Origin: Astropecten irregularis
Lineage: Eukaryota; Echinodermata; Asteroidea; Paxillosida; Astropectinidae
Assembly: GCA_963971285.1 (NCBI GenBank)
Contig: OZ020251.1
Span: 4,402,001 to 4,466,000, forward strand
Length of the DNA: 64,000 nt
Reading direction: 5' to 3'
In this document: in pieces, positions 7,904 to 33,714 of the stretch
How positions within the stretch are numbered: the stretch's first letter is position 1
How the letters are laid out: each line of letters begins with the position of its first letter
Made by a program: the position numbers and the translations under genes
Notes under the pieces: model-generated
Databases searched by the model: none
Told to the model about the DNA's origin: nothing
What the model saw: only the letters and a program-made list of their open reading frames with translations

Positions 7904-8030
7904 ATAAATATCTGTGCATCCCACTATGCTCATTAATATTGAGCATATTCAAAATCATTAATAACATTAATCTATTACAAAAGTACAGCACTTGGTGGAA
8001 GTTTGCTTTGAGATCAATTTTTCATCTTAC

Positions 8031-8181: not shown

Positions 8182-8188
8182 CTGATAA

Positions 8189-8254: not shown

Positions 8255-8302
8255 GATGGACGAGGAAATCAAGATGGACGACAAAGCTGTGGAGTCAGCC
8301 TC

Positions 8303-9202: not shown

Positions 9203-9404
9203 AGATTGGCAATCAAACCCTCAAGATATTGTTAATCATGGTTAAGGTGTCAACAAAACCACTTGCTTTTATAAAAACAGCAACTTCAAATACACTTTAG
9301 AGTTTCTACAATCCAAGCTTTCATGTAAGCTTCCTGACATGAATGAAGAGAATGTTTAGAGTTTTATTTAGGAAGGCTTGTTGTTTCATTTATAGCAGGA
9401 TCTT

Positions 9405-10300: not shown

Positions 10301-10362
10301 GGTCATTATTGTGGTTGATAAAGCCCAAATGATTCTGGGTATTTATTTGAGGATCCTCGTAC

Positions 10363-10503
10363 CAAATAGAGTGACAGTGACAGAAGTCGATGGCCGAGAT
10401 GATTTGTCGGAAGAACTTCCTGGCTTCTCGCGGCGTCAATCGACCTTTTCTCACCAGGTAGTCAAACAGCTCCCCTCCAGACACGTGCTCTAAAACCAGG
10501 TAT
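10363..10503 (-). CDS. BRSK: BRSK/SAD kinase exon (hinge and helices D/E)
   Basis: 141-bp exon: one base completing Leu, then 46 residues starting [20 protein letters not shown] and ending [17 protein letters not shown], then TG of a split Cys codon. This is the hinge, helix D and helix E of the kinase C-lobe and is almost identical to vertebrate and nematode BRSK/SAD proteins. The acceptor is CCGATAG|A and the donor is TTTG|GTACG. The first base of the next exon (C) completes TGC, so the joined sequence reads HSIC-HRDLK as in the family. The exon is bracketed by two unrelated tandem arrays: one ends about 60 bp downstream of its donor and the other begins within 5-10 bp of its acceptor. Confidence 0.95.
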
Positions 10504-10507
10504 CTAT

Positions 10508-11090
10508 CGGAGAGGCAACAGAACGAGAGAGAATGTGGTAATGTGTGGTAAGCAGCTCTTGTCTTGTGTGGTATGTGCAGAGGGTTAGGGTAAAGAATGT
10601 GGTAATATGTGGTAAGCAGCTCTTGTCTTGTGTGGTAGGTGCAGAGGGTTAGGGTTAAGCCCCTCTGTGGAGAATGTGGTAATGTGTGGTAAGCAGCTCT
10701 TGTCTTGTGTGGTAAGTGCAAAGGGTTAGGGCAAAGAATGTGGTAATGTGTGGTAAGCAGCTCTTGCCTTGTGTGGAAGGTGCAAAGGGTTAGGGTTAAG
10801 TCCCCCTGTGGAGACTGTGGTAATGTGTGAAAAGCAGCTCTTGTCTTGTGTGGTAGATGCAGAGGGTTAGGGTAAAGAATGTGGTAATATGTGGTAAGCA
10901 GCTCTTCTCTTGTGTGGTAGGTGCAGAGGGTTAGGGTTAAGTCCCCCTGTGGAGACTGTGGTAATGTGTGATAAGCAGCTATTGTCTTGTGTGGTAGGTG
11001 TAGAGGGTTAGGGTTAAGTCCCCCTGTGGTAGTGTGTGGTAGGCAGCTCTTGTCTTGTGTGGTAGGTGCAGAGGGTTAGGGTTAAGAAAT
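10508..11090. repeat. 64-79-bp tandem array with GGGTTAGGGTTA motif
   Basis: About eight to nine units sharing AGCAGCTCTTGTCTTGTGTG and GCAGAGGGTTAGGGTTAAG. Measured spacings of the CAGCTCTTGTC box are 66, 75, 64, 79, 64, 76 and 69 bp, so short and long forms alternate. The difference is the presence of TCCCCCTGTGGAGA-like sequence. The array starts next to the acceptor of the hinge exon. Confidence 0.9.
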
Positions 11091-11645
11091 AAAGCTTGAA
11101 ATGGTTGAAGCTATGCATATTCAGTGTTTTTATACTTCAACTATAACCTGCTGCATCGAGATCAAAACCTCACAATAACAATGGGCATGATGGGAGACTT
11201 TGGAGCTCTTCAACTTGGTAGTGCAAGCGAACAACAACGCGCGTATGCTCATAATTGTGCGAGCATGCTCAGAGCTAGCAAAAAAGAGATTTTGGTCTGC
11301 TGTTGCTGCCAACATCTCAAAAGTGTCCCATAACTTTTTGCGCAACAATTGCAGTTTTCAATTTTGCGCTGCTTTCTACTGTTTCCAATGATCGATTTAG
11401 CTGAAAATTTCACAGATCTATTCCGACCATGACAAATCAAATTATGAACAGACAGCAACAGTTTTATCAACTTAACCGAAGTATGATAGTACATATATGT
11501 ACCTTTAACTGTGGTATGTGGTATGGAGGTAGGTTATTGGTTAATCTGAATGTCATTTGTTCCTTAACTTGCAAAACACTGTCACAATGTCTAAATGGCT
11601 ATCAACTGAAAAAAAAAACCTGCAAAACATGTGTCTATTACTTAC
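11091..11645. other. Intron sequence, no feature recognised
   Basis: Between the tandem array and the helix-C exon. It shares CAAATCAAATTATGA with the MITE at 8303-8684 near 11437, so part may be an old repeat. Confidence 0.4.
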
Positions 11646-11731
11646 AGGTATTTTCTGTTTTCGTAGACGTCATACAGACCCAGCACATGTGGATGCTCAA
11701 TCAGTTTCATGATTGCGATCTCCCTCTCAAC
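11646..11731 (-). CDS. BRSK: BRSK/SAD kinase exon (helix C region)
   Basis: 86-bp exon encoding 28 residues from [20 protein letters not shown] to YDVYENRKY plus two bases of a Leu codon. It contains the helix-C glutamate (in VEREI) that pairs with the VAVK lysine, then beta-4 and the start of beta-5. The acceptor has a pyrimidine-rich tract ending in AAACAG. The donor is CT|GTAAG, leaving phase 2. The next exon at 10363-10503 begins with A, restoring CTA (Leu), which gives the family sequence KYLYLVLEHV. The spacing to that exon is 1,142 bp, while the upstream intron is 17,238 bp and holds the heptamer array. Confidence 0.94.
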
Positions 11732-12117
11732 CTGTTTAGGAAGAAGAAAACAAAATCGACAACAAATGATTGAGTGAGTTTGCATATTTTACAGACATTT
11801 CATTGTGGCCTGTATTTCTAATCACAATTGTATCTCGCAGGTCGAAAGTTCAAATCCAACACACAGAGTGTGAAATTATAGTCGGACAGCGGACATTTTC
11901 TGCCGAGCACTTATGCGTCAGGCCCTCCTAACTCCGAGTACTTATTGTGTTCACCTTAACAAAATCAAATATGCTCGGACAAAATGGTCAACCATATGAA
12001 CAACATCTCTTAAAACATCAACAAAAAATCACTTTTGATTTTAGCCTTCGATAAAGATTCTGGTAGGTCGAAGCAGTCGTCAGGCCCTCCTAACTCCAAG
12101 CATTTTATATTAAAATT

Positions 12118-12170
12118 CCAGGTCATTATTTTGGCTGATGGGCAGTTTGCTGCAGTTTATTACTTGTATA
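12118..12170. repeat. Dispersed repeat fragment
   Basis: CAGGTCATTATTTTGGCTGA through GCAGTTTGCTGCAGTTTATT recurs near 37519-37568; the first part also follows the 60-bp array at 10299-10320. It may mark an element that carries the 60-bp repeat. Confidence 0.6.
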
Positions 12171-12295
12171 AAAAAATAACTTGAATTGGAGATCAAAGCT
12201 GGTTTTTAGTGCTTCTACCAGGCTTTTACTTTTCCACAAAATAAAGGTACATAGTACACAGACCTGAAATGAGCAAGTATACATGTACTGTACAG

Positions 12296-12545
12296 GGGCC
12301 AATTTCATAGAGGTGCTTTAGCACCAAAATTTGCTTAAAAGCACCTAAATTCCTAGTGAAAAAAATCAGTATGCCAGCCAAAACTACTTGTGAATGTTAT
12401 GCTCAGCAAGCAATGGCCGAATACAAGTCAAAAGTATTAAACATCACATGACAATTTGGTTGATAATCCTGTTTGATCAAGGAAGACTTTTCATGCTTTT
12501 AAAACAAACTTTTGTGCTTTAAAAGCAGCTCTATGAATTTGGCTC
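12296..12545. mobile_element. Harbinger-like MITE, diverged copy
   Basis: GGGCCAATTTCATAGAGGTG at the left and, inverted, GAATTTGGCTCC at the right, with internal GTGCTTTAGCAC-like ends and GTTGATAATCCTGTTT matching the 5438-5693 element. CAG precedes the left end; the right flank has diverged. Confidence 0.75.
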
Positions 12546-13250
12546 CTGAAGTGTTTATTTCCCACTTTAAAAGAATCCCATTCGAATGTACACCTTTATT
12601 TCTTCAAATTCAATGCATTTTAAATATGCCATTCCCTGTCTGACAGACACAAGAACATCATGAGCGTAATAATTACATCAACGTTCCCAAGAATAGAGTA
12701 ATCTAGTGTACGATCACACATTGACGAGGTGGTTAACGTGTATCCCACTCGCGCTAATTAACGCTGTGCCGTTCATGCAACGACGTGACCTTCGTTCCCA
12801 GCCTCGGTCCTTGCCTTACCCAACAACGTCGATCGTTCTGCCTTTCATACCCCCTTCCCTCTACCCCTTTTTTCCCCCTCTCCCTCATCCAGCGCAGCCA
12901 GGGAGCGTGGAGGCACCACACATGGCTTTCTCCACACGGCCTCCCTAGTAATTATCCAATTATACCAAGCCACAATCTGATTTTGCAGCGGGACCAGGCG
13001 GTTTTATTGTGCGGCAGGCACCGGCAAAAATCTGCAAATCGTAGCCTACGGAGATACAGTATTCAAAATATATTCCGCACCATCATCATGCTCCTTTTCT
13101 GTTTGCATGTTTTTTTTCTGCTTTTTTTTTTTCGAGAAGGTGGGGGATTTTTAAAATAGGAAAACTGCTTTTGGATAATGGTTGATCTTATTTGGCTGGA
13201 TATTTTAAGCTCAGGATTTAATGCAGTGAGGCAATGGTCATTCTGTACAT
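12546..13250. other. Non-repetitive intron segment, possible regulatory DNA
   Basis: The least repetitive part of the large intron. From 12700 to 13000 it is richer in CpG and holds CGCTAATTAACG and CTAGTAATTATCCAATTAT, which resemble homeodomain-type sites, plus a CT-rich tract at 12840-12895. No exon recognised. A regulatory role is inference only. Confidence 0.3.
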
Positions 13251-14300
13251 GCAACAAAACTAGCTACATGTACATGTTGTAATTCAATTAGAGTTTTATG
13301 GTATTCGTGGTAAATTGGTAATTGACGCTAAGTATGGTATTTATAAATCTATTTAAGCTGGTTTAAATGTACATGTACTCTTAAGTCTCTGGAAGTTAGC
13401 AACATGATCTAGACTGCACAAGATGATGGCAATCCATAAAACAAGCAAACCTAGGCACACTGTATACAGCATGTACAGTGTACATGTATTACGGACTGAC
13501 TGTTCAATAGCGCTGCGCACTTGAGCTAAAAATAGCACCGAACCTCAGACAAACACTGCAACCGGCCATGCAAACGTGTGGTGAGTGGGGGTATGTGTGC
13601 GCGTACATGCATGGTGTGACGTCATCAGTGCAGAACGCTATTCTCTGTCTGTGTCAAAATTCTATTCCATCTCACCAGAAAGTACTTTTGTCTTGGAGAA
13701 GAGCCTCAATTTTGAAACAAAGTACATGTAGTAGGGTGTCAAATCTTACGACTGTAGGAAAATATTACAATGTACCTAATGGATTACGCTCATACGTACC
13801 AGTACAGTACAGTGTACTTGACCTGTACACTATGTACATACATGTGTATTTCAGTTTCATGTGTAATGTACGTACATGTATGTACATATGTACAGGTGTA
13901 CAAATGTATTATACAAGTACTGGGTCCGATTTCACCGAAGAGCCATCAATTTTAACATACCGGTACACTGTATGTACATGAACATGTATCTATCGATCGA
14001 AGGACTCAAGATGCGCTGCAGCCCTACGTACAGACGTAAGATATGATGGGTTATCCTATGTACATGTAACTCAACGATCGGATCGTAAGGCTCAGTGAAA
14101 TCGACCACGCGTATTGAACAAGTTCCGTATGAATGATGCATACTGCATACACTGTGCATGAACAGTGAATGAACTTCATTGAATGCGAAATGTGCATGGA
14201 AACAGTATGCAGAATAACATGTTACATGTATGTAGATGTACATACATACATGTACATACATGTGTCCATGTATACGTACAATGTACCTGTACAGTGCACA
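13251..14300. repeat. TACATGTA-rich stretch
   Basis: Dense in self-complementary TACATGTA, GTACATGTAC and TACATACATG motifs, especially 13780-13900 and 14210-14300. Small reading frames here are low-complexity (Tyr, Val, His, Cys rich) and are not supported as genes. Confidence 0.8.
13922..14106. mobile_element. MITE, GGGTTGATTTCACC family, copy 2
   Basis: GGGTCCGATTTCACCGAA at the left and GTGAAATCGACC at the right are inverted relatives. The internal GCAGCCCTACG and ATATGATGGGTTA match copy 1 at 9057-9202. TACATGTA motifs have expanded inside it. Confidence 0.6.
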
Positions 14301-14946
14301 TAAGAATTTACCCTAAGTACTGTGACTGTATGGATTCTTACAGTACCACACAGATTAAACAATTAGCCTCAGACAAACAACCCTACCGCACACTGCGTGT
14401 TACAAACTAAATCCACTTTAATGTGATTCTAATGTTTTGGCGTTCAATATTGTTCCAGCGTGCAATGGATCAATACATACGAACGGCTGGTTCCCTCATC
14501 GTCCCATTCTAATGATTTCAAGCCTGTGTTTGTCACTGACAGCGAGATGGGAGTCCCATCTGCTAACTAGTGAAGTCCTGCAAGCTCTCGCTGACAACTT
14601 TAAAGGGGCTTGCCAAGTTCTACGGCAAGGACGAACACTGGAGATAATGTACATGTGAAAAGTACTGCATGTGAGTGTACCATGTAACATACTTTGAACT
14701 TCAGGACAAAGGACGTCCACATCGAGTGCAAGTTTGAAATTTCAACTTTATAAATATGACAATGGCGGAAAGAAAAACTACCAACTAATAGATCACACTC
14801 ATGACATTTACAGCAAACAGATTTAACGATACAATCATCTACAGTCATTACAAAAACACACAAACAAACAAAGGAATCCAGACAAACACACGAGCAACAA
14901 ACTGCCTGACAACATCACCATAGTCTGCAGAGAAAGTAGACATCAG
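14301..14946. other. Intron sequence; CA/AAAC-rich edge of the heptamer array
   Basis: No gene recognised. The last 100 bp (14845-14946) are T-poor with CACACAAACAAACAAA and AGACAAACACACGAGC, a composition that grades into the heptamer array. Confidence 0.5.
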
Positions 14947-17900
14947 TGACAACAGACAACAGACAACGGACAACAGACAACGGACAGAGGACAACGGACA
15001 ACGGACAGCGGACAACTGACAACGGACAACGGACAACGTACAACGGACAACAGACAGCAGACAACGGACAACGGACCTCAGACAACAGACAACGGACAAC
15101 GGACAACGGACAACGGACAACGGACAACGGACAACGGACAACGGACAACGTACAACGGACAACAGACAACGTACAACGGACAACGGACAGCAGACAGCAG
15201 ACAGCAGACAGCAGACAAAGGACAGCGGACAACAGACAGCAGACAGCAGACAACGGACAACGGACAATGTACAACGGACAACGGACAGCAGACAGCAGAC
15301 AGCGGACAACGGACAACGTACAACAGACAGCGGACAACGGACAACAGACAACGGACAACGGACAACGGACAACAGACAGCAGACAACGGACAGCGGACAA
15401 CAGACAACGGACAACGTACAACGGACAACGGACAGCGGACAACAGACAACGGACAACGGACAACGGACAACAGACAGCAGACAACGGACAACAGACATCA
15501 GACAACGGACAACGGACAACGGACAACGGACAACGGACAACGGACAACGGACAACGGACAACGGACAACGGACAACGGACAGCGGACAACAGACAACGGA
15601 CAACAGACAACGGACAACGGACAACAGACAGCAGACAACGGACAACGGACATCAGACAACGGACAACGGACAACGGACAACGGACAACGGACAACGGACA
15701 ACGGACAACGGACAACGGACAACAGACAACGGACAACGTACAACGGACAACAGACAACGGACAGGGACAACGGACAACAGACAACAGACAACGGACAACG
15801 AACAGCAGACAGCAGACAGCAGACAGCAGACAGCAGACAAAGGACAGCGGACAACAGACAGCAGACAGCAGACAACGGACAACGTACAACGGACAACGGA
15901 CAACGGACAGCAGAAAGCAGACAGCAGACAGCAGACAGCAGACAGCAGACAGCAGACAAAGGACAGCGGACAACAGACAGCAGACAGCAGACAACGGACA
16001 ACGGACAATGTACAACGGACAACGGACAGCAGACAGCAGACAGCGGACAACGGACAACATACAACAGACAGCGGACAACGGACAACAGACAAAGGACAAC
16101 GGCAACGGACAACAGACAGCAGACAACGGACAGCGGACAACAGACAACGGACAACGTACAACGTACAACGGACAACAGACAACGTACAACGGACAACGGA
16201 CAGCAGACAGCAGACAGCAGACAAAGGACAGCGGACAACAGACAGCAGACAGCAGACAACGGACAACGTACAACGGACAACGGACAACGGACAGCAGACA
16301 GCAGACAGCGGACAACGGACAACGTACAACAGACAGCGGACAACGGACAACAGACAACGGACAACGGACAACGGACAACAGACAACAGACAGCAGACAAC
16401 GGACAACGGACAATGTACAACGGACAACGGACAGCAGACAGCAGACAGCAGACAGCGGACAACGGACAACGTACAACAGACAGCGGACAATGGACAACAG
16501 ACAACGGACAACGGACAACAGACAACAGACAACAGACAACGGACAACGTACAACGGACAACAGACAGCAGACAACAGACAGCGGACAACAGACAACAGAC
16601 AACGGACAACGTACAACGGACAACAGACAACGGACAACAGACAACAGACAGCAGACAACGGACAACGGACAACGAACAACGGACAACAGACAGCAGACAA
16701 CAGACAACAGACAGCAGACAATGGACAACAGACAGCAGACAACGGACAACAGACAGCAGACAGCAGACAACGTACAACAGACAACGTACAACGGACAACA
16801 GACAGCAGACAACGGACAACAGACAACAGACAGCAGACAACGGACAACGAACAACGGACAACAGACAACAGACAGCAGACAACGGACAACAGACAACAGA
16901 CAGCAGACAACGGACAAAAGACAGCAGACAACGGACAACAAACAGCAGACAGCAGACAACGGACAACAGACAGCAGACAACGGACAACAGACAGCAGACA
17001 ACGTACAACGGACAACAGACAGCAGACAACGTACAACGGACAACAGACAGCAGACAACGGACAACGGACAACGGACAACGGACAACGGACAGCAGACAGC
17101 AGACAGCAGACAGCAGACAAAGGACAGCGGACAACAGACAGCAGACAGCAGACAACGGACAACGGACAATGTACAACGGACAACGGACAGCAGACAGCAG
17201 ACAGCGGACAACGGACAACGTACAACAGACAGCGGACAACGGACAACAGACAACGGACAACGGACAACAGACAGCAGACAACGGACAGCGGACAACAGAC
17301 AACGGACAACGTACAACGGACAACGGACAGCGGACAACAGACAACGGACAACGGACAACTGACAACAGACAGCAGACAACGGACAACAGACAGCAGACAA
17401 CGGACAACGGACAACGGACAACGGACAACGGACAACGGACAACGGACAACGGACAACGGACAACGGACAACGGACAACGGACAACGGACAACGGACAACG
17501 GACAGCGGACAACAGACAACGGACAACAGACAACGTACAACGGACAACAGACAGCAGACAACGGACAACGGACAACGGACAACGGACAACGGACAACGGA
17601 CAACGGACAACGGACAACGGACAACGGACAACGGACAACGGACAACGGACAACGGACAACAGACAACGGACAACGTACAACGGACAACAGACAACGGACA
17701 GGGACAACGGACAACAGACAACAGACAACGGACAGCAGACAGCAGTCAGCAGACAGCAGACAGCAGACAAAGGACAGCGGACAACAGACAGCAGACAGCA
17801 GACAATGGACAACGTACAACGGACAACAGACAACGTACAACGGACAGCAGACAGCAGACAGCAGACAGCAGACAAAGGACAGCGGACAACAGACAGCAGA

Positions 17901-20900
17901 CAGCAGACAACGGACAACGGACAATGTACAACGGACAACGGACAGCAGACAGCAGACAGCGGACAACGGACAACGTACAACAGACAGCGGACAACGGACA
18001 ACAGACAACGGACAACGGCAACGGACAACAGACAGCAGACAACGGACAGCGGACAACAGACAACGGACAACGTACAACGTACAACGGACAACACACAACG
18101 TACAACGGACAACGGACAGCAGACAGCAGACAGCAGACAGCAGACAAAGGACAGCGGACAACAGACAGCAGACAGCAGACAACGGACAACGTACAACGGA
18201 CAACGGACAGCAGACAGCAGACAGCGGACAACTGACAACGTACAACAGACAGCGGACAACGGACAACAGACAACGGACAACGGACAACGGACAACAGACA
18301 GCAGACAACGGACAACGGACAATGTACAACGGACAACGGACAGCAGACAGCAGACAGCAGACAGCGGACAACGGACAACGTACAACAGACAGCGGACAAC
18401 GGACAACAGACAACGGACAACGGACAACAGACAACAGACAACAGACAACGTACAACGGACAACAGACAGCAGACAACAGACAGCGGACAACAGACAACGG
18501 ACAACGTACAACGGACAACAGACAACGGACAACAGACAACAGACAGCAGACAACGGACAACGGACAACGAACAACGGACAACAGACAACAGACAACAGAC
18601 AACAGACAACAGACAGCAGACAATGGACAACAGACAGCAGACAACGGACAACAGACAGCAGACAGCAGACAACGTACAACGGACAACGTACAACGGACAA
18701 CAGACAGCAGACAACGGACAACAGACAACAGACAGCAGACAACGGACAAAAGACAGCAGACAACGGACAACAAACAGCAGACAGAAGACAACGGACAACA
18801 GACAGCAGACAACGGACAACAGACAGCAGACAACGTACAACGGACAACAGACAGCAGACAACGTACAACGGACAACAGACAGCAGACAACGGACAGCGGA
18901 CAACGGACAACGGACAACGGACAACGGACAACGGACAACGGACAACGGACAACGGACAACGGACAACGGACAACGGACAACGGAAAACAGACAACGTACA
19001 ACGTACAACGGACAACGGACAGCAGACAGCAGACAGCAGACAGCAGACAGCAGACAAAGGACAGCGGACAACAGACAGCAGACAGCGGACAACGGACAAC
19101 GTACAACAGACAGCGGACAACGGACAACAGACAACGGACAACGGACAACAGACAGCAGACAACGGACAACGGACAATGTACAACGGACAACGGACAGCAG
19201 ACAGCAGACAGCAGACAGCGGACAACGGACAACGTACAACAGACAGCGGACAACGGACAACAGACAACGGACAACGGACAACAGACAACAGACAACAGAC
19301 AACGGACAACGTACAACGGACAACAGACAGCAGACAACAGACAGCGGACAACAGACAACAGACAACGGACAACGTACAACGGACAACAGACAACGGACAA
19401 CAGACAACAGACAGCAGACAACGGACAACGGACAACGAACAACGGACAACAGACAGCAGACAACAGACAACAGAAAACAGACAGCAGACAATGGACAACA
19501 GACAGCAGACAACGGACAACAGACAGCAGACAGCAGACAACGTACAACGGACAACGTACAACGGACAACAGACAGCAGACAACGGACAACGGACAACAGA
19601 CAACAGAAAACAGACAACGGACAACAGACAGCAGACAATGGACAACAGACAGCAGACAACGGACAACAGACAGCAGACAGCAGACAACGTACAACGGACA
19701 ACGTACAACGGACAACAGACAGCAGACAACGGACAACGTACAACGGACAACGGACAGCAGACAGCAGACAGCGGACAACGGACAACGTACAACAGACAGC
19801 GGACAACGGACAACAGACAACGGACAACGGACAACAGACAGCAGACAACGGACAACGGACAATGTACAACGGACAACGGACAACGGACAACGGACAACGG
19901 ACAACAGACAGCAGACAACGGACAACGGACAATGTACAACGGACAACGGACAGCAGACAGCAGACAGCGGACAACGGACAACGTACAACAGACAGCGGAC
20001 AACGGACAACAGACAACGGACAACGGACAACAGACAACAGACAACAGACAACGTACAACGGACAACAGACAGCAGACAACAGACAGCGGACAACAGACAA
20101 CGGACAACGTACAACGGACAACAGACAACGGACAACAGACAACAGACAGCAGACAACGGACAACGGACAACGAACAACGGACAACAGACAACAGACAACA
20201 GACAACAGACAGCAGACAATGGACAACAGACAGCAGACAACGGACAACAGACAGCAGACAGCAGACAACGTACAACGGACAACGTACAACGGACAACAGA
20301 CAGCAGACAACGGACAACAGACAACAGACAGCAGACAACAAACAAAAGACAGCAGACAACGGACAACAAACAGCAGACAGCAGACAACGGACAACAGACA
20401 GCAGACAACGGACAACAGACAGCAGACAACGTACAACGGACAACAGACAGCAGACAACGTACAACGGACAACAGACAGCAGACAACGGACAACGGACAAC
20501 GGACAACGGACAACGGACAACGGACAACGGACAACAGACAACGGACAACGGAAAACAGACAACGTACAACGTACAACGGACAACGGACAGCAGACAGCAG
20601 ACAGCAGACAGCAGACAGCAGACGAAGGACAGCGGACAACAGACAGCAGACAGCAGACAACGGACAACGTACAACGTACAACGGACAACGGACAACAGAC
20701 AACGTACAACGGACAACGGACAGCAGACAGCAGACAGCAGACAGCAGACAGCAGACAAAGGACAGCGGACAACAGACAGCAGACAGCAGACAACGGACAA
20801 CGGACAATGTACAACGGACAACGGACAGCAGACAGCAGACAGCGGACAACGGACAACGTACAACAGACAGCGGACAACGGACAACAGACAACGGACAACG

Positions 20901-23900
20901 GACAACGGACAACAGACAGCAGACAACGGACAGCGGACAACAGACAACGGACAGCAGACAGCAGACAGCAGACAGCAGACAGCAGACAAAGGACAGCGGA
21001 CAACAGACAGCAGACAGCAGACAACGGACAACGGACAATGTACAACGGACAACGGACAGCAGACAGCAGACAGCGGACAACGGACAACGTACAACAGACA
21101 GCGGACAACGGACAACAGACAACGGACAACGGCAACGGACAACAGACAACGGACAGCGGACAACAGACAACGGACAACGTACAACGTACAACGGACAACA
21201 CACAACGTACAACGGACAACGGACAGCAGACAGCAGACAGCAGACAGCAGACAAAGGACAGCGGACAACAGACAGCAGACAGCAGACAACGGACAACGTA
21301 CAACGGACAACGGACAGCAGACAGCAGACAGCGGACAACTGACAACGTACAACAGACAGCGGACAACGGACAACAGACAACGGACAACGGACAACGGACA
21401 ACAGACAGCAGACAACGGACAACGGACAATGTACAACGGACAACGGACAGCAGACAGCAGACAGCAGACAGCGGACAACGGACAACGTACAACAGACAGC
21501 GGACAACGGACAACAGACAACGGACAACGGACAACAGACAACAGACAACAGACAACGTACAACGGACAACAGACAGCAGACAACAGACAGCGGACAACAG
21601 ACAACGGACAACGTACAACGGACAACAGACAACGGACAACAGACAACAGACAGCAGACAACGGACAACGGACAACGAACAACGGACAACAGACAACAGAC
21701 AACAGACAACAGACAACAGACAGCAGACAATGGACAACAGACAGCAGACAACGGACAACAGACAGCAGACAGCAGACAACGTACAACGGACAACGTACAA
21801 CGGACAACAGACAGCAGACAACGGACAACGTACAACGGACAACGGACAGCAGACAGCAGACAGCGGACAACGGACAACGTACAACAGACAGCGGACAACG
21901 GACAACAGACAACGGACAACGGACAACAGACAGCAGACAACGGACAACGGACAATGTACAACGGACAACGGACAACGGACAACGGACAACGGACAACAGA
22001 CAGCAGACAACGGACAACGGACAATGTACAACGGACAACGGACAGCAGACAGCAGACAGCGGACAACGGACAACGTACAACAGACAGCGGACAACGGACA
22101 ACAGACAACGGACAACGGACAACAGACAACAGACAACAGACAACGTACAACGGACAACAGACAGCAGACAACAGACAGCGGACAACAGACAACGGACAAC
22201 GTACAACGGACAACAGACAACGGACAACAGACAACAGACAGCAGACAACGGACAACGGACAACGAACAACAGACAACAGACAACAGACAACAGACAACAG
22301 ACAGCAGACAATGGACAACAGACAGCAGACAACGGACAACAGACAGCAGACAGCAGACAACGTACAACGGACAACGTACAACGGACAACAGACAGCAGAC
22401 AACGGACAACAGACAACAGACAGCAGACAACGGACAAAAGACAGCAGACAACGGACAACAAACAGCAGACAGCAGACAACGGACAACAGACAGCAGACAA
22501 CGGACAACAGACAGCAGACAACGTACAACGGACAACAGACAGCAGACAACGTACAACGGACAACAGACAGCAGACAACGGACAACGGACAACGGACAACG
22601 GACAACGGACAACGGACAACGGACAATAGACAACGGACAACGGAAAACAGACAACGTACAACGTACAACGGACAACGGACAGCAGACAGCAGACAGCAGA
22701 CAGCAGACAGCAGACGAAGGACAGCGGACAACAGACAGCAGACAGCAGACAACGGACAACGGACAACGTACAACGGACAACGGACAACAGACAACGTACA
22801 ACGGACAACGGACAGCAGACAGCAGACAGCAGACAGCAGACAGCAGACAAAGGACAGCGGACAACAGACAGCAGACAGCAGACAACGGACAACGGACAAT
22901 GTACAACGGACAACGGACAGCAGACAGCAGACAGCGGACAACGGACAACGTACAACAGACAGCGGACAACGGACAACAGACAACGGACAACGGACAACGG
23001 ACAACAGACAGCAGACAACGGACAGCGGACAACAGACAACGGACAACGTACAACGTACAACGGACAACAGACAACGGACAACGGACAACGGACAGCAGAC
23101 AGCAGACAGCAGACAAAGGACAGCAGACAACAGACAGCAGACAGCAGACAACGGACAACGGACAATGTACAACGGACAACGGACAGCAGACAGCAGACAA
23201 CGGACAACGTACAACAGACAGCGGACAACGGACAACAGACAACGGACAACGGACAACGGACAACAGACAGCAGACAATGGACAGCGCACAACAGACAACG
23301 GACAACGTACAACGTACAACGGACAACAGACAACAGACAACAGACAACGGACAACGTACAACGGACAACAGACAGCAGACAACAGACAGCGGACAACAGA
23401 CAACAGACAACGGACAACGTACAACGGACAGCGGACAACAGACAACGTACAACGGACAACGGACAGCAGACAGCAGACAGCAGACAGCAGACAGCAGACA
23501 GCAGACAAAGGACAGCGGACAACAGACAGCAGACAGCAGACAACGGACAACGGACAATGTACAACGGACAACGGACAGCAGACAGCAGACAACGGACAAC
23601 GTACAACAGACAGCGGACAACGGACAACAGACAACGGACAACGGCAACGGACAACAGACAGCAGACAACGGACAGCGGACAACAGACAACGTACAACGTA
23701 CAACGGACAATAGACAACGTACAACGGACAACGGACAGCAGACAGCAGACAGCAGACAAAGGACAGCGGACAACAGACAGCAGACAGCAGACAACGGACA
23801 ACGTACAACGGACAACGGACAGCAGACAGAAGACAGCGGAAAACGGACAACGTACAACAGACAGCGGACAACGGACAACAGACAACGGACAACGGACAAC

Positions 23901-26900
23901 GGACAACAGACAGCAGACAACGGACAATGTACAACGGACAACGGACAGCAGACAGCAGACAGCAGACAGCGGACAACGGACAACGTACAACAGACAGCGG
24001 ACAACGGACAACAGACAACGGACAACGGACAACAGACAACAGACAACAGACAACGGACAACGTACAACGGACAACAGACAGCAGACAACAGACAGCGGAC
24101 AACAGACAACAGACAACGGACAACGTACAACGGACAACAGACAACGGACAACAGACAACAGACAGCAGACAACGGACAACGGACAACGAACAACGGACAA
24201 CAGACAGCAGACAACAGACAACAGACAACAGACAGCAGACAATGGACAACAGACAGCAGACAACGGACAACAGACAGCAGACAGCAGACAACGTACAACG
24301 GACAACGTACAACGGACAACAGACAGCAGACAGCAGACAACGGACAACGAACAACGGACAACAGACAACAGACAGCAGACAACGGACAACAGACAACAGA
24401 CAGCAGACAACGGACAAAAGACAGCAGACAACGGACAACAAACAGCAGACAGCAGACAACGGACAACAGACAGCAGACAACGGACAACAGACAGCAGACA
24501 ACGTACAACGGACAACAGACAGCAGACAGCGGACAACGTACAACGGACAACAGACAGCGGACAACGGACAACGGACAACGGACAACGGACAACGGACAAC
24601 GGACAACGGACAACGGACAACGGACAACGGACAACGGACAACGGACAACGGACAACGGACAACAGACAACGGACAACGTACAACGGACAACAGACAACGG
24701 ACAACGGACAACAGACAACGTACAACGTACAACGGACAACGGACAGCAGACAGCGGACAACGGACAACAGACAACGGACAACGGACAACGGACAACAGAC
24801 AGCAGACAACGGACAGCGGAAAACAGACAACGGACAACGTACAACGTACAACGGACAACAGACAACGTACAACGGACAACGGACAGCAGACAGCAGACAG
24901 CAGACAAAGGACAGCAGACAAAGGACAGCAGACAACAGACAGCAGACAGCAGACAACGGACAACGGACAATGTACAACGGACAACGGACAGCAGACAGCA
25001 GACAACGGACAACGTACAACAGACAGCGGACAACGGACAACAGACAACGGACAACGGACAACGGACAACAGACAATAGACAACGTACAACGGACAACGGA
25101 CAGCAGACAGCAGACAGCAGACAAAGGACAGCGGACAACAGACAGCAGACAGCAGACAACGGACAACGTACAACGGACAACGGACAGCAGACAGCAGACA
25201 GCGGACAACGGACAACGTACAACAGACAGCGGACAACGGACAACAGACAACGGACAACGGACAACAGACAGCAGACAACGGACAACGGACAATGTACAAC
25301 GGACAACGGACAGCAGACAGCAGACAGCAGACAGCGGACAACGGACAACGTACAACAGACAGCGGACAACGGACAACAGACAACGGACAACGGACAACAG
25401 ACAACAGACAACAGACAACGGACAACGTACAACGGACAACAGACAGCAGACAACAGACAGCGGACAACAGACAACAGACAACGGACAACGTACAACGGAC
25501 AACAGACAACGGACAACAGACAACAGACAGCAGACAACGGACAACGGACAACGAACAACGGACAACAGACAGCAGACAACAGACAACAGACAGCAGACAG
25601 CAGACAATGGACAACAGACAGCAGACAACGGACAACAGACAGCAGACAGCAGACAACGTACAACGGACAACGTACAACGGACAACAGACAGCAGACAACG
25701 GACAACAGACAACAGACAGCAGACAACGGACAACGAACAACGGACAACAGACAACAGACAGCAGACAACGGACAACAGACAACAGACAGCAGACAACGGA
25801 CAAAAGACAGCAGACAACGGACAACAAACAGCAGACAGCAGACAACGGACAACAGACAGCAGACAACGGACAACAGACAGCAGACAACGTACAACAGACA
25901 GCAGACAGCGGACAACGTACAACGGACAACAGACAACGGACAACGGACAACGGACAACGGACAACGGACAACGGACAACGGACAACGGACAACGGACAAC
26001 GGACAACGGACAACGGACAACGGACAACGGACAACGTACAACGGACAACAGACAACGGACAACGGACAACAGACAACGTACAACGTACAACGGACAACGG
26101 ACAGCAGACAGCAGACAGCAGACAGCAGACAAAGGACAGCGGACAACAGACAGCAGACAGCAGACAACGGACAACGGACAACGGACAACGGACAACAGAC
26201 AACGTACAACGGACAATGGACAGCAGACAGCAGACAGCAGACAGCAGACAGCAGACAAAGGACAGCGGACAACAGACAGCAGACAGCAGACAAAGGACAG
26301 CGGACAACAGACAGCAGACAGCAGACAACGGACAACGGACAATGTACAACGGACAACGGACAGCAGACAGCAGACAGCGGACAACGGACAACGTACAACA
26401 GACAGCGGACAACGGACAACAGACAACGGACAACGGACAACGGACAACAGACAGCAGACAACGGACAGCGGACAACAGACAACGGACAACGTACAACGTA
26501 CAACGGACAACAGACAACGTACAACGGACAACGGACAACGGACAGCAGACAGCAGACAGCAGACAGCAGACAAAGGACAGCAGACAACAGACAGCAGACA
26601 GCAGACAACGGACAACGGACAATGTACAACGGACAACGGACAGCAGACAGCAGACAACGGACAACGTACAACAGACAGCGGACAACGGACAACAGACAAC
26701 GGACAACGGACAAGGGACAACAGACAGCAGACAATGGACAGCGCACAACAGACAACGGACAACGGACAACGTACAACGTACAACAGACAACAGACAACGG
26801 ACAACGTACAACGGACAACAGACAGCAGACAACAGACAGCGGACAACAGACAACAGACAACGGACAACGTACAACGGACAACAGACAACGGACAACAGAC

Positions 26901-28694
26901 AACAGACAGCAGACAACGGACAACGGACAACGAACAACGGACAACAGACAGCAGACAACGGACAACAGACAACAGACAGCAGACAACGGACAACAGACAG
27001 CAGACAACGGACAACAGACAGCAGACAGCAGACAACGTACAACGGACAACGTACAATGGACAACAGACAGCAGACAACGGACAACAGACAACAGACAGCA
27101 GACAACGGACAACGAACAACAGACAACAGACAGCAGACAACGGACAACAGACAACAGACAGCAGACAACGGACAAAAGACAGCAGACAACGGACAACAGA
27201 CAGCAGACAGCAGACAACGGACAACAGACAGCAGACAACGGACAACAGACAGCAGACAACGGACAACAGACAACAGACAGCGGACAACAGACGACAGACA
27301 ACGGACAACGTACAACGGACAACAGACAACGGACAACAGACAACAGACAGCAGACAACGGACAACGGACAACGAACAACGGACAACAGACAGCAGACAAC
27401 AGACAACAGACAACAGACAGCAGACAACGGACAACAGACAGCAGACAACGGACAACAGACAGCAGACAGCAGACAACGTACAACGAACAACGGACAACAG
27501 ACAACAGACAGCAGACAACGGACAACAGACAACAGACAGCAGACAACGGACAAAAGACAGCAGACAACGGACAACAGACAGCAGACAGCAGACAACGGAC
27601 AGCAGACAGCAGACAACGGACAACAGACAGCAGACAACGTACAACGGACAACAGACAGCAGACAACGTACAACGGACAACAGACAGCAGACAACGGACAA
27701 CGGACAACGGACAACGGACAACGGACAACGGACATCGGACAACGGACAACGGACAACGGACAACGGACAACGGACAACGGACAACGTACAACGGACAACA
27801 GACAACGGACAACAGACAACAGACAACAGACAACGGACAACGGACAGCAGACAGCAGACAGCAGACAGCAGACAAAGGACAGCGGACAACAGACAGCAGA
27901 CAGCAGACAACGGACAACGGACAACAGACAACGTACAACAGACAACGGACAGCAGACAGCAGACAGCAGACAGCAGACAGCAGACAAAGGACAGCGGACA
28001 ACAGACAGCAGACAACGGACAACGGACAGCGGACAACAGACAACGGACAACGGACAATGTACAACGGACAACGGACAGCAGACAGCAGACAGCGGACAAC
28101 GGACAACGTACAACAGACAGCGGACAACGGACAACAGACAACGGACAACGGACAACAGACAGCAGACAACGGACAGCGGACAACAGACAACGGACAACGT
28201 ACAACGTACAACGGACAACAGACAACAGACAACAGACAACGGACAACGTACAACGGACAACAGACAGCAGACAACAGACAGCGGACAACAGACAACAGAC
28301 AACGGACAACGTACAACGGACAACAGACAACGGACAGCAGACAACGGACAACAGACAACAGACAGCAAACAACGGACAGCAGACAAAGGACAACAGACAG
28401 CAGACAGCAGACAACGTACAACAGACAACGTACAACGGACAACAGACAGCAGACAACGGACAACAGACAACAGACAGCAGACAACGGACAACGAACAACG
28501 GACAACAGACAACAGACAGCAGACAACGGACAACAGACAACAGACAGCAGACAACGGACAAAAGACAGCAGACAACGGACAACAGACAGCAGACAGCAGA
28601 CAACGGACAACAGACAGCAGACAACGGACAACAGACAGCAGACAACGGACAACAGACAACAGACAACAGACAGCGGACAACGGACAACGGACAA
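14947..28694. repeat. 13.7 kb heptanucleotide satellite (CGGACAA and variants)
   Basis: About 1,960 consecutive 7-bp units. The common forms are CGGACAA, CAGACAA, CAGACAG, CGGACAG and CGTACAA; rarer ones include AGGACAG, CAATGTA-type and 6-bp units such as CGGCAA. The plus strand is almost free of T. The first three units are TGACAAC-like and the array ends at CGGACAAAT. None of the common heptamers makes a stop codon in any of the six frames. Because 7 is not a multiple of 3, the code cycles every 21 bp, giving frames of more than 4,400 codons on both strands (TDNGQRT-type on plus, CPLSVVR-type on minus). They have no other coding feature. The array lies in a BRSK intron. Confidence 0.98.
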
Positions 28695-28812
28695 ATAAAC
28701 AAACAAACAACAAACAAACACCACAACACCCCAACAAACACCCTCCCCCAACCTCAACACACAAACAAACAAAACAAAACAAAACACAAATCACAAACAA
28801 ACAAAGAAACAA
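28695..28812. repeat. AAAC-rich right edge of the heptamer array
   Basis: T-poor (AAAC)n, (AAAAC)n and CCCCAACA-type sequence bordering the array. Like the left edge it suggests that the heptamer arose within A/C-rich simple sequence. Confidence 0.85.
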
Positions 28813-28920
28813 ATATGTGCATACGATTATGAAATGGTATACATAATAAAGCTAAGAAGCGACGAATAAACAAATCACTGAATCACAGATGTCACACCCT
28901 CCAAGGTTACGATTCCCCAA

Positions 28921-28957
28921 GATGGGGTGGGGGTAGAGGAGGGGGGAGTCTTGGGAG
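28921..28957 (+). other. Predicted G-quadruplex motif beside a kinase exon
   Basis: Four G-runs (GGGG, GGGGG, GGGGGG, GGG) with loops of about 1, 7 and 6 nt, starting GATGGGGTGGGGGTAGAGG. It lies 13-49 bp past the donor of the VAVK exon. The gene is transcribed from the other strand, so the G-rich strand is the template and the RNA is C-rich here. Confidence 0.7.
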
Positions 28958-28969
28958 CAATATTCTCAC

Positions 28970-29064
28970 CTTCATCAGTACAGACTCACTCAACTTCTCC
29001 TTGTTGATGATCTTGACGGCGACCTTCCGTCCAGTCACGCAGTGTACACCCAGTTTCACCAGAC
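28970..29064 (-). CDS. BRSK: BRSK/SAD kinase exon (VAVK lysine region)
   Basis: Internal exon of a BR-serine/threonine kinase (SAD kinase), an AMPK-related kinase that acts in neuronal polarity and synapse organisation in animals. The 95 bp give two bases of a split Gly codon and 31 residues starting [19 protein letters not shown] and ending SVLMK. This is the N-lobe segment directly after the glycine-rich loop; VAVK holds the ATP-binding lysine. The acceptor is CTGTAG and the donor is AAG|GTGAGA, ending in phase 0. It joins the 11646-11731 exon across a 17.2 kb intron. The preceding exon must supply a G (phase 1) and should encode the glycine-rich loop; I did not find it. Family assignment is by recognition of the BRSK sequence, which differs from AMPK, MARK and SIK here. 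Confidence 0.93.
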
Positions 29065-29396
29065 CTACAGCAGAAAGAAAATAGAGACACAGTCCCGTCT
29101 TAATTAAAGATGACAGATGTGAGAGAAGCCGCTAGCATGGCATGAACCAAATGTAAACAAAATAACAACCATCATCCATGAAAATGAAAAAAAGAAACAA
29201 GGAAATCAATCAATCTGACATTTTGAAGGTCTGCAAGTGCTATGATTCTCTAAAAGGACAAACTATTCAAGTTAAACCTTCAAGGCCATTTTCAAGTCCA
29301 TTCTCTTGAGTGAGTCTTGGCTTCAATTGACTTAATTTCACATGGCACTTTTTTGATTGGAAACCAAACCTTACATGTAGATTACATCTAAGCTGA
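29065..29396. other. Intron-like sequence, no feature recognised
   Basis: Upstream of the VAVK exon acceptor. I looked for the glycine-rich-loop exon and did not see it. Confidence 0.4.
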
Positions 29397-29644
29397 GGCC
29401 AATTTCACGGCGCTGCTTAGCACAAAACTTTGCTAAGCATGACATTTCTGTCTTAATAAAAACAGGGTTAACAACCAAATTTCCATGTGTTGTGTATCGC
29501 TTGTGAGTGTTCTTTCACTTCTTTGGCTGATGTTCACTGACCCTGAATATCAAATGAAATGCTAACCGGTGGTTTGTATTATTGGGCAAGACATTTTTGT
29601 GCTAAGCAAACATTTGTGCTTAGCAGCGCCATGAAATTGGACCC
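29397..29644. mobile_element. Harbinger-like MITE, copy 3
   Basis: GGCCAATTTCACGGCGCTGC and, inverted, GCAGCGCCATGAAATTGGACC end a 248-bp element. The interior (AAGCATGACATTTCTGTCTT, AACAGGGTTAACAACCAAAT) matches the inverse of 5438-5693. It lacks the terminal G at the left. Confidence 0.8.
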
Positions 29645-29667
29645 TGATCAATTGATCCCTTTGAAAG

Positions 29668-29731
29668 ATAACCATGACAACATGGTAACCATAGTAACTT
29701 GGTAACCATGACAACTTGGTAACCATGGACC
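29668..29731. repeat. GGTAACCATGACAACTT short tandem repeat
   Basis: About 3.5 imperfect units of 16-17 bp, each containing GGTAACCAT; the motif GGTAACC is self-complementary. Confidence 0.8.
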
Positions 29732-30239
29732 CGGGGGAGTGATGTGGACAAAGGGATGGTGATGACAGCAAGGTGAGGACCAGAGGATCAGAGCTCATAA
29801 TTACGAGTTCCACTCAGTCATCCTGCAAAACATCTCTGTACTGCAGGACATTGACCACAAGATTTTGAACAATATTTGGTTACATTACAGTCCTGACAGT
29901 GAAACACTGTTATAACCAAAGATCCTATAGCTGCACAAGATAGCCTACTCTTTCAATATCATGCACAACTAGAGGAAGTACGCACAGGCGGCCATTTTAA
30001 TAAGCAAAATTTCCTGTTTTCATTTGGTGTGTGATTATGGATGAATCTATAATAATAGGCCTTAGTAATGATTATAAAAATTATTGGGGTGAAAGTTTCA
30101 TCTTGAAACAGTTGAATTTGACGTTATAACATAACATAAGTGCTGTTGCTTACTTGGCAGCCAAATGATTGTTCACTTTTTGGGCTGAGTAGGCTATCTT
30201 TGGTTATAACGAACATGGTGGGATGCATTGTCTGTTACT
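29732..30239. other. Non-coding; possible inverted-repeat element at 29908-30212
   Basis: GTTATAACCAAAGAT near 29908 and ATCTTTGGTTATAAC near 30198-30212 form inverted ends, with GATAGCCTACTC/GAGTAGGCTATC just inside. This is probably a MITE. No gene recognised. Confidence 0.5.
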
Positions 30240-30900
30240 ACATGTGTAAAAGTACACTAGTACTGTACATGATTGGTAACATACCCACACACATGTTCAC
30301 AGATTTTTAACATATAACCAGGGTATAGTGCTGATAGAAACATACTGTTAAAATATTTATGCCTGGAATGGAATATTTATAATAATAAAAATAATAATAA
30401 TTGAATTTATAAAGTGCAGATTCTATAAAAATATATTCAAATGCGCTGTACAAAGAGGATTTAAAAATGTTTAAAGCAGCTATTACATTACAACATACAG
30501 TATGTATAAAAACAGTTAGATCAAAGCAAAACATCTAACAAAAATAAAAATGCGATATGCAAAATTGATTACAATTATAAATTACAGAATTGATAATAGA
30601 TTACAATAATTGGGTTAATTATTTATCCAGAAATTATTCAAACAAAGACCGAAAACAGTTTTGATCTTGGAGTAAGATCAAACCATTCTTTGAGTTTTAC
30701 AATGTATTTAATACACATATGTACACGTACATGTACACATATGTACATATCAGAAATTGAGTCAGGTTTTCGCTGTTTTCTTGTGACTCAGATGTCTGAC
30801 TGAGCTCAAATTTCCACAAGACTATCACTTTATGCATATTGGATCAGACAAGGTGTGAATACTGCTAGCTGTGAACTTTACCAATTATGTATACCTTTAA
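30240..30900. mobile_element. Decayed TTAAAGGTA-family MITE with AT-rich insert
   Basis: Left end near GATTGGTAACATACC and right end ACCAATTATGTATACCTTTAA are inverted relatives. The interior shares CATGTTCACAGATTTTTAAC and ATTATTCAAACAAAGACCGA with the other copies. An (AAT)n-rich stretch at 30370-30620 including TTTATAAAGTGCAGA and GCGCTGTACAAAGAG looks like a separate insert. Confidence 0.5.
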
Positions 30901-32103
30901 AGTGGTCATTCGTTGAAAAACAAACGACCACCGGGTGTATTGAAAAACCATACAGCAGGGCTGGAAATACATGTAAGGTTTGGTGAGGGCAAGGCCAATT
31001 TTCCATAGCAAGGGGCACTTCCATTGGAAAATCATAATGTCTATGAAAACATTTGAAGGGGCACCAAGGCCAAGAACCAGAGCAACGAAGGCTGTGGCCT
31101 CTGTTTATTTCCAGGCTTGATTCAGTACATATGTATTTTACACAAAAATTTGGAGCCAAGGATGATTTTCCGTATTGAATTTAACCAAATGTTCGGTATA
31201 GCGGTGTTCATTATCTATAGACTTTGTGGCGTTTCATTGTCAGTTTATACCTGTGTCATACACTGTATACTACATACAACACTTGACAATGTGATACTGC
31301 ATGCATCAATAAATGATTAATAAAACCTTAATGAAATTGTATGCTCACTTTACGTACATGTACGGTATTGCACGTATATATATATACATACTGCATGTGT
31401 GTATTGTATTCCGAAAATGTTCATTTAAGGAATACAATGGACCCATGCACACTACTATTCACAGACCATATCTACAGTCTTAATAACCAAAGATATCAAA
31501 GAGAATTCAATTATCTGTACTCATTGATACATGTATCCGTGGTAACGGTTGTCAAAGTGCACCCAACTCCACGGTAGTCCTGGTGATATATACGTACATG
31601 TAGCTCATCTATATGTACATGTACATTGTACATTGTATGCCTTCCTCCTTTTTGTTTAGTTTTGCAAACTAACACTTATTAGTGATTAAATATCGTATAT
31701 ACATACTATACATACATGTATGTACGTGTATGTATGTATACACGTAGACTACACCATGTACAATATGTGTGTTTTCACTGTGCAAATATACGTGTATATT
31801 TAAGCACGTTCATCAGTATTATAGAACGATCATATTTCTTGTATAAATCACGCTATTCATACATTCATCCACCTACGCAGACCTACAGTCATGACAGTGT
31901 ACACATGTACACGTTTGCAATGCTTTCTTCAAAGTGAGAGTTTAGAAAACACAGAATTTCAGGACAGTGCAAAACACACCACTACACGTACATGAGATGT
32001 ACATACATACATACATGTATGTAAATAAGGAATCTTTAAATATATTTTTCATCACTGAGATTTTGGAAATTTTGTGATAAATGTACAATGTACATGTACA
32101 TTG
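30901..32103. other. Non-coding with TACATGTA motifs and an end-repeat copy
   Basis: Contains a copy (31149-31213) of the end sequence that bounds 4075-6589 and many TACATG/GTACAT motifs (31340-32100). An imperfect inverted pair near 30957 and 31116 (GGGCTGGAAATA/TATTTCCAGGC) may be another small element. No exon recognised. Confidence 0.45.
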
Positions 32104-32270
32104 TATACGGGGTGTCCCAATAAAAAACCCGCAACACTTTGTGTCGAGAACTATTATATGAAAATTAAACTGTTTATCACTTCAAGATTCAGATGTGATA
32201 AAATCATGTATTGGCTATCACCATGTAGAATTTGAGCAAAATTGGACTGAAATTGAGGGAAAAAACATGT
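32104..32270. mobile_element. Partial mariner-like MITE
   Basis: TATACGGGGTGTCCCAATAA followed by GAGAACTATTATATGAAAAT and CTATCACCATGTAGAATTTG, homologous to the first half of 6655-7072. The right end is missing. Confidence 0.7.
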
Positions 32271-32327
32271 CGTGTAGATAATAGAACATGCAGACAAAGT
32301 ACAAGGTATTCATTGTATACCCGGTAG

Positions 32328-32706
32328 TTAAAGGTAAATAAATATCATACTTTGATTTTTGTCAAAAGAAATACAGAATCATCACCATGGGCAAAAATAT
32401 CAAGGATACAGCAACAGTCATCTGTGAAAATTTAAGTCCTACACGGTGCCCACCTTTTGAAAAAACTTTTATTAAGTCTTTTCTCTTTTATTTTTGATCT
32501 TTAGAAGATCCAAAATCATTTTGGTCACTGGTTCCACTCTTTTCTGGATATTAAAATACAGCATTTAAGGAAGAAATATTTTAACAGTCATGTCGGTATG
32601 TTTCTACCATCACCATCTTTATACCCCGTAAGTTATCTATATAGGTAAATCTATGAAGACTTCTGTTTCAGTATGCTGCCAAAGTATGATACTGTATTAC
32701 CTTTAA
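32328..32706. mobile_element. MITE, TTAAAGGTA family, copy 2
   Basis: TTAAAGGTAAATAAATATCA to the inverse ATACTGTATTACCTTTAA; interior as in 3030-3415 (ATCACCATGGGCAAAAATAT, TTTTGATCTTTAGAAGATCC). Confidence 0.8.
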
Positions 32707-33055
32707 TGCTGTTTTTGTTACCAAAATCAATAATAATATACACGTAAATCAAATAAATATTTATTTGTTTATTGTTCTGTTCACATTTATTCATCTATAG
32801 ATGTTGTAGGCCTCTCCTATCAGCAAGCCATATGTATGGTATATGGCCTCTACAATATTAACGGTCAACGCATTTTGAATTCTGCTACATGACTCACACA
32901 GTGAATACGTTCAACATACTGTATGGAGGAAAGACTGGCCTTCCTAGTCCCTCCTTCATTTTGTCCCCTCCTTGTAACGTTATGTTCTAGAATGACTCTG
33001 GATGATTGATCGATTGATCAAATGACTGATTGGTTGATTGACTGATCTAAATCAT
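32707..33055. other. Non-coding spacer between two inverted MITEs
   Basis: No exon recognised. A GATTGAT-type short repeat lies near 33000-33045. Confidence 0.45.
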
Positions 33056-33420
33056 AGGGTAGTATCATACTTTGGTAAGAAACCAAAACAGAAATGTTCA
33101 CAGATTTACATGAACTTTCAGGGTATGAAGATGGTGCTGGTAGAAACCTAGGTTAAAATTGTTCTGCCTGAAATGGTGTACATGTATTTATCCAGAAATT
33201 AGTAAAACAACGACCACAAATCATTTTGATCTTTTAAAAGATCAAAAATAAAAGAGAAAAGACTTAAGAAATACCGAGGCCGTTTTTCACGATTTTCTCA
33301 AAAAGTGGGCACCGTATGGGACTGAAATTTTCACAGATGTCTGTGATTGTATCTTCCTTGATATTTTTGCCAATGATTCTGTACTTCTTTGACAAAAACC
33401 GAAGTATGATACTACCTTAA
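33056..33420. mobile_element. MITE, TTAAAGGTA family, copy 3 (inverted)
   Basis: AGGGTAGTATCATACTTTGG to AAGTATGATACTACCTTAA. The interior is the reverse complement of the 3030-3415 and 32328-32706 copies, e.g. GATCTTTTAAAAGATC and CCTTGATATTTTTGCC. Confidence 0.8.
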
Positions 33421-33424
33421 ATGT

Positions 33425-33714
33425 CAGGGCTCGAAATCTCCACTAGACCTTGGACCGAGTCTAGTGATTTCAGTGTCGGTCTAGTAAAGTGTGTACTGCA
33501 CTAGTCCGGCTGTCTAGTGATTTTGTTTTCCTTGCACAAATAAAATGGTTCCTAAATTGATTATTGTGGACAGAATATTGTTATACAATTGTACATGTAG
33601 GCCTACATGAATGCCACAAGTCTAGTGAAAAAAGTTCAGGTCTAGTAAAATGCTTCAGTTACATGTACTAGACCTGCTGTCCAGTGCTTTTTTTTGGACG
33701 GAATTCGAGCCCTG
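33425..33714. mobile_element. hAT-like MITE
   Basis: Inverted ends CAGGGCTCGAA and TTCGAGCCCTG (with ATT next to the latter) enclose 290 bp. CTAGTGATTTC/GGTCTAGTAAA motifs repeat internally. CAGGG-type ends fit hAT, but the 8-bp flanks do not match, so the target duplication has been lost or the ends are not exact. Confidence 0.6.

Follow-up and report, generated by a model that had tools for sequence, protein, structure and literature searches.

A heptanucleotide array of about 1,965 units in the intron of a probable truncated BRSK duplicate, with shorter arrays at the same intron site

The window (the whole 64-kb stretch of DNA analysed, C15:4402001-4466000 of the 475.7-Mb assembly of Astropecten irregularis) most likely carries part of a BRSK kinase gene as a truncated segmental duplicate in inverted orientation, in which a heptamer tract grew stepwise. 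The duplicate would keep four exons, encoding the kinase N-lobe and the early part of the C-lobe, and would be set in a satellite-rich stretch. A fuller copy of the same gene region on the same contig and a partial copy on a second contig carry much shorter heptamer tracts at the same place in the intron.

The array and the kinase exons in the window

Tandem Repeats Finder detected a heptamer array of 13,747 bp (period 7, 1964.7 copies, 84% matches, score 15314) in a window that contains no N, in agreement with the size given in the preliminary description of this DNA. The array and the exons around it are located as follows (window coordinates).

14948..28694: heptamer array, consensus GACAACG on the + strand (Tandem Repeats Finder, unit census)
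28970..29064, - strand: BRSK exon a, GLVKLG...SVLMK (splice sites, BRSK2 match)
11732..28969, - strand: intron between exons a and b, 17,238 bp (splice sites)
11646..11731, - strand: BRSK exon b, VEREIAIMK...NRKYL (splice sites, BRSK2 match)
10363..10503, - strand: BRSK exon c, ...CHCHSI (splice sites, BRSK2 match)
8032..8181, - strand: BRSK exon d, ...CPEVIR (splice sites, BRSK2 match)

A simple split of the array yielded 700 units of GACAACG, 405 of GACAGCA, 391 of GACAACA, 142 of TACAACG, and 111 of GACAGCG. Among 1,952 full units, variation was confined mainly to positions 1, 5, 6, and 7, while positions 2 (A in 1,951), 3 (C in 1,944), and 4 (A in 1,949) were close to invariant. No inverted copies of the three unit types sought were present in the array, and not a single GACAACG occurs in the window outside it. 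The array contains 1,008 CpG dinucleotides, with an observed/expected ratio of 1.07 compared with 0.47-0.53 in the flanks; if methylated, it would form a very CpG-dense block. Strand-biased CpG decay was suggested by the frequency of A at position 7 (882 of 1,952 units) compared with T at position 6 (41 of 1,952). This idea was dropped because the isolated differences in recent blocks were too few (25 site groups, with three C>T and two G>A changes at that CpG).

The splice donors and acceptors of exons a and b are ordinary, and the reading frame continues across the junction of the two exons. When the four exons are joined, the resulting 158 residues align without gaps to BRSK2 (4ynz, which we take to be mouse or human BRSK2), with 137-138 identical residues (138 when the codon at the exon c/d junction is taken from the joined DNA). 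In a PDB search with the four-exon peptide, BRSK2 scored 306.6 bits compared with 186.5 for the next kinase, making BRSK the closest match of this kinase domain. The exons, the kinase family and the intron position proposed earlier are upheld. The preliminary description had also named a misjoin of unrelated loci as one result that would undo its reading. However, the BRSK residues encoded on one side of the array follow directly on those encoded on the other, and both flanks recur together, 4 kb apart, at a second locus; the two sides of the array are therefore not unrelated loci joined by error.

A fuller BRSK copy on the same contig

The second locus emerged from a genome-wide protein search (93 matches, most of them to other kinases; 150 of 228 candidates scored). 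The same four exons are present again, inverted, approximately 312 kb away at C15:4089649-4097712, and the intron between exons a and b is 3,976 bp there, compared with 17,238 bp in the window copy. The two loci share a segment that is bounded in the window by the positions given below.

C15:4089650-4089744: exon a of the fuller copy, inverted relative to the window copy
C15:4093721-4093806: exon b of the fuller copy, inverted relative to the window copy
C15:4094930-4095070: exon c of the fuller copy, inverted relative to the window copy
C15:4097562-4097711: exon d of the fuller copy, inverted relative to the window copy
3008..34021 (window): shared segment, inverted relative to C15:4084700-4101564 (3008 corresponds to 4101564 and 34021 to 4084700), with blast similarity stopping at both ends
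3030..3415 (window): a dispersed repeat, about 390 bp long, where the shared segment begins on the left; the genome DNA examined has 15 matches to it, full or partial

The fuller copy continues into C-lobe exons at 4103980-4104051 and 4105264-4105434, which begin 6.3 kb past exon d. When the genome was queried with 91 residues of the C-lobe (15 matches; 41 of 41 candidates scored), matches at 72-79% identity occurred only beside the fuller copy, and all others were at or below 62%. No C-lobe exon was found at the window locus (the window and 60 kb on each side). A search for further BRSK exons of any kind also came up empty in the window, in its two 60-kb flanks, and in another 40 kb to the right; the 184 kb formed by the window and the two flanks contain no N. 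These results speak against the view in the preliminary description that a conserved, working kinase gene must transcribe the whole array and remove it, as does the intron of the fuller copy, which bears only a 754-bp array. An intact BRSK gene with distant exons was rejected on the same grounds, since the C-lobe exons lie only beside the fuller copy and none lies within 60 kb of the window. A first-exon peptide used as query had no match in the window and no convincing match in 30 kb of sequence spanning the fuller copy; in those 30 kb, no first exon and no C-terminal exons of BRSK were identified.

The window copy shares both exons and introns with the fuller copy and ends abruptly inside the gene, with similarity between the two loci halting at 3008 and 34021 within continuous sequence. 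Window positions 937-2654 match, at 87%, sequence lying about 119 kb further right and not the BRSK locus, as would be expected if the duplicate truly ends near 3008. Among the matches listed, window positions 1-2680 had none near the fuller copy (40 of 5,699 candidates scored for both comparisons). Outside the array, noncoding sequence of the two loci differs by 2.8-4.6%.

Eight codons differ between the two C15 copies, seven silently and one by replacement. The replacement sits in the window copy, at a residue that is D in both BRSK2 and the fuller copy. No disabling change was found: the reading frames and examined splice sites are intact in both copies, and the exons kept in the window show neither disabled frames nor relaxed constraint. 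Under a neutral Poisson model that assigns half of the divergence to the window branch, 5.0-8.1 replacements would be expected in the window copy (P of one or fewer, 0.039 to 0.003). Judged from these sequences, the exon changes do not look like those of an old dead pseudogene. Because the replacements are far fewer than the neutral expectation, the window copy would be either very young and derived from a diverged allele, or overwritten through conversion by the fuller copy, or under constraint during some of its history. The low number of replacements could be accounted for by a duplication that was recent and started from a diverged allele, by gene conversion, or by a haplotype placed wrongly in the assembly.

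The surroundings of the window copy are rich in repeats. The heptamer array is not the largest in the window, being exceeded by a 116-bp satellite that occupies 41709-60800 and, with its extensions, the stretches given below.

41709-61255 and 63174-64000: 116-bp satellite, continuing to 80903 in window coordinates, mixed with 46-bp arrays

A 165-bp lead-in to this satellite at 41524-41688 recurs at 62899-63063 with 97.6% identity. Eight arrays together make up 59.6% of the window. Tandem repeats occupy 52.8% of the 184-kb region that includes the window and 47.8% of the part of this region outside the window; the corresponding values are 9.3% for 30 kb at the fuller copy and 1.9% for the 40 kb further right. 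The satellite domains on the two sides (-59660 to 2654 and 68629 to 121484 in window coordinates) are direct near-duplicates of each other, up to 98.6% identical and offset by 120-137 kb in their largest blocks, and the BRSK fragment lies at the end of the left domain. These duplicates could reflect a segmental duplication or a doubled haplotype. 

Several smaller features were observed in the window. A tandem duplicate of about 1 kb (4135-5037 and 5055-6227) has pieces 89-95% identical, and 35000-36919 on the - strand holds degraded retroelement-like frames whose best Pfam match, RVT_1 (E 0.017), is below the cut-off. A tRNA match at 61918-61990 on the - strand (Rfam, 52.1 bits) has an undefined anticodon in ARAGORN and is perhaps a tRNA-derived repeat. 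A chimeric gene with two exon-like stretches at 38054-38812 on the - strand was considered and rejected; the peptide had no Pfam match or convincing PDB match. It had 34 matches on five contigs (C9, C10, C12, C15, and C19), indicating a multi-copy gene or element.

We consider it unlikely that the window is instead the other allele of the BRSK gene, placed by the assembler as a second inverted copy, in which case a working gene would carry an 18-fold allelic difference in array length. The intact frames and the 7:1 ratio of silent to replacement changes would suit an allele, and a noncoding difference of 1.3-4.6% could, from general knowledge, be allelic in a very variable animal. The direct order and near-identity of the satellite domains flanking the window likewise resemble a doubled haplotype. 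However, the C-lobe exons are missing within 60 kb beyond exon d, in sequence without N, although they begin 6.3 kb past that exon in the fuller copy. An allele also sits poorly with similarity that stops at both ends inside continuous sequence.

A functional BRSK gene that transcribes its 17.2-kb intron with the whole array and then splices it out is highly improbable, given that C-lobe exons are missing from the window and from the 60 kb on each side of it. Such a gene would have intact frames, donors, and acceptors, as observed, and an array whose transcribed strand has no decoy words to mislead splicing: this strand contains 5 AG dinucleotides and no GTRAG, no pyrimidine-rich YAG, and no AATAAA or ATTAAA. 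However, the lack of decoys is not specific to orientation. The opposite strand, with 1,443 AG dinucleotides, also has no GTRAG, pyrimidine-rich YAG, or polyadenylation words. Because both strands score zero, we rejected an orientation filter, by which the array would be tolerated owing to a transcribed strand free of splice signals.

Even less credible is a transcript that titrates a splicing factor, as CUG repeats do, through hundreds of YGCU(U/G)Y sites, described as a Muscleblind-type motif (PMC4176163). The transcribed strand does contain 533 YGCTKY matches (38.8 per kb, compared with 1.7-2.6 per kb elsewhere in the window), but this count follows from the unit GACAGCA, and transcription of the locus is only hypothetical. 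In addition, a 601-nt piece of the transcribed strand folds weakly and no better than its shuffles (z +1.69; 18 of 20 shuffles were equally or more stable), whereas the opposite strand folds better than its own shuffles (z -3.48). The folds and the motif-word counts are properties of the unit and no sign of function. A coding repeat can be dismissed: the + strand is open for 4,630 codons (14940-28832), but each strand has more than one frame that stays open over thousands of codons (up to 4,612 on the - strand), as the unit itself explains, and variants are spread evenly over codon positions (566, 545, and 553).

Three array lengths at one intron site

At the matching place in its intron, the fuller copy carries a 754-bp heptamer array of 107.7 copies. 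A third, partial copy on contig C12 (a 74% match in the genome-wide protein search) has exon a, at C12:9583327 (32 residues, identical), and the adjoining intron and stops before exon b. Its site contains about six clean heptamers directly after (TTTG)n; Tandem Repeats Finder at a low threshold counted 11.1 copies at 82%, with the (TTTG)n edge included. The length at this one intronic site thus varies between paralogous copies, from about 6 to 107.7 to 1964.7 units. The exact sequence (GACAACG)x3 has 162 sites in the 475.7 Mb (137 forward and 25 reverse), and all 162 lie in the two C15 arrays, 137 in the window and 25 in the fuller copy. Two neighbouring minisatellites served as size controls.

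9430..10289: 60-bp minisatellite, 860 bp in the window and 1,059 bp in the fuller copy
10529..11086: 64/77/141-bp minisatellite, 558 bp in the window and 540 bp in the fuller copy

The lengths of these minisatellites differ between the C15 copies by just 23% and 3%, and so the change in size is particular to the heptamer.

Over two stretches present in all three copies, the C15 copies differ from each other by 1.3% and 1.9%, whereas the C12 copy differs from them by 6.7-6.9% and 3.5-4.6%. C12 is therefore the likely outgroup. Because the C12 copy is the most diverged, growth of the array would be the simpler direction, on a comparison of three sequences with no formal root.

The internal structure of the long array also bears on its history. 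The order of units is far from chance, with 6,585 repeated-100-mer positions compared with 0 in three unit shuffles. Exact repeats of at least 100 bp form 220 stretches and cover 85.7% of the array; when mismatches are allowed, 65 internal block pairs cover 90.4%. The largest block is 1,368 bp with 7 differences (99.5%), and another of 687 bp has none. Block pairs at least 97.2% identical number 47 of 65 and cover 75.0% of the array, and 19 pairs at least 99% identical cover 49.7%. Since these 47 pairs are closer than the 2.8-4.6% difference between the flanks, much of the growth looks younger than the separation of the two C15 loci, unless conversion homogenised the array. Block coverage dips in the interior too, so the edges are not clearly the least homogenised part.

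The 21-mers of the short array in the fuller copy cover 96.4% of the long array, whereas its 49-mers cover only 33.2%, so that the long array uses the same vocabulary as the short one, rearranged. Of the 1,952 long-array units, 132 belong to types that the short array lacks. The near-identical blocks point to block duplication on top of slippage.

In the reading we favour, of a truncated duplicate with a growing tract, a small heptamer tract would have arisen in the (TTTG)n simple repeat of the exon a-b intron and lengthened stepwise, from a state of about six units as on C12, through about 108 as in the fuller copy, to about 1,965 in the window. We infer that replication slippage made and shuffled single units, and that in-register unequal exchange or block duplication may later have duplicated segments 0.2-1.4 kb long within it. 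The last step may have been permitted when the copy no longer belonged to a working gene. No function would be needed; if the copy is transcribed, the array would be inert intron filler.

Comparison with known repeat systems and implications

Intronic expansions at single human loci offer the closest parallels in length. As described in the respective sources, (ATTCT)n in ATXN10 reaches up to 4,500 copies, or about 22.5 kb (PMC9528567), (CCTG)n in CNBP up to 11,000 copies (PMC6651174), and (AAGGG)n in RFC1 400-2,000 copies (PMC8145836). On these descriptions, the present array resembles them in its short unit, single locus, intronic position, and thousands of copies. However, the long array here lies in a truncated duplicate, has a 7-bp unit with several variants and kilobase blocks, and differs in length between paralogous copies within one assembly and not between people.

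Among human intronic VNTRs, the one in CACNA1C has a 30-mer unit. The array in the window is likewise a locus-specific intronic tandem repeat, but the CACNA1C repeat differs in that unit and in its working gene. One account gives the CACNA1C repeat a mean of 5,669 bp among 19 genomes (PMC11975116); another describes a 30-mer unit in a passage that leaves the gene unnamed (PMC10502081). In Drosophila, the Y-linked genes kl-3 and kl-5 are described as having simple satellite inside their introns (PMC6508621, PMC8248703), as in the present case. The Drosophila fertility genes are complete and transcribed, have introns of megabase size, and are served by dedicated RNA-binding proteins, whereas the array here spans 13.7 kb of an incomplete copy. 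Similar to satellite DNA families, the array is a head-to-tail kilobase array with internal block duplications; unlike them, the heptamer is confined to one locus family, with no exact (GACAACG)x3 elsewhere in the 475.7 Mb, and occupies neither many loci nor a large share of the genome. The literature titles and abstracts searched held no recognised description of this array or of a BRSK intron satellite.

An intrinsically expansion-prone motif was rejected as an explanation, as GACAACG is not exceptional: (GACAACG)x3 has 10 stretches in viral contigs, compared with 1, 10, 16, 3, and 3 for five composition-matched control heptamers. The array variant GACAGCA has 16 stretches in viral contigs, and (GACAACG)x4 has at least 119 in prokaryote genomes. 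Among the 129 viral and prokaryote loci listed, there are 134 GACAACG tracts, the longest 360 bp; short tracts up to this length occur in cyanobacteria and other bacteria, with GACAACT variants. We take these tracts to be convergent.

A more tentative idea, which we regard as possible but doubtful, is that splicing caps intronic arrays, holding the array near 10^2 units in the spliced copy, and that the duplicate, which lacks the downstream exons and lies among satellites, was freed to reach about 2,000. If this ceiling is real, one genome would display a new satellite as a seed, under a cap, and after its release. By the time satellites are encountered, they have usually reached full size and spread to many places; in this genome, an apparent seed, an intermediate, and a long form occur at one site with alignable flanks. 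How the array grew, and what part gene function had in it, is directly testable in relatives and in individuals, with the two minisatellites as size controls. Finding a large array flanked by two good exons does not by itself imply a working gene, and the interest of this array lies less in any burden on an intron than in its place at the long end of a series of three steps.
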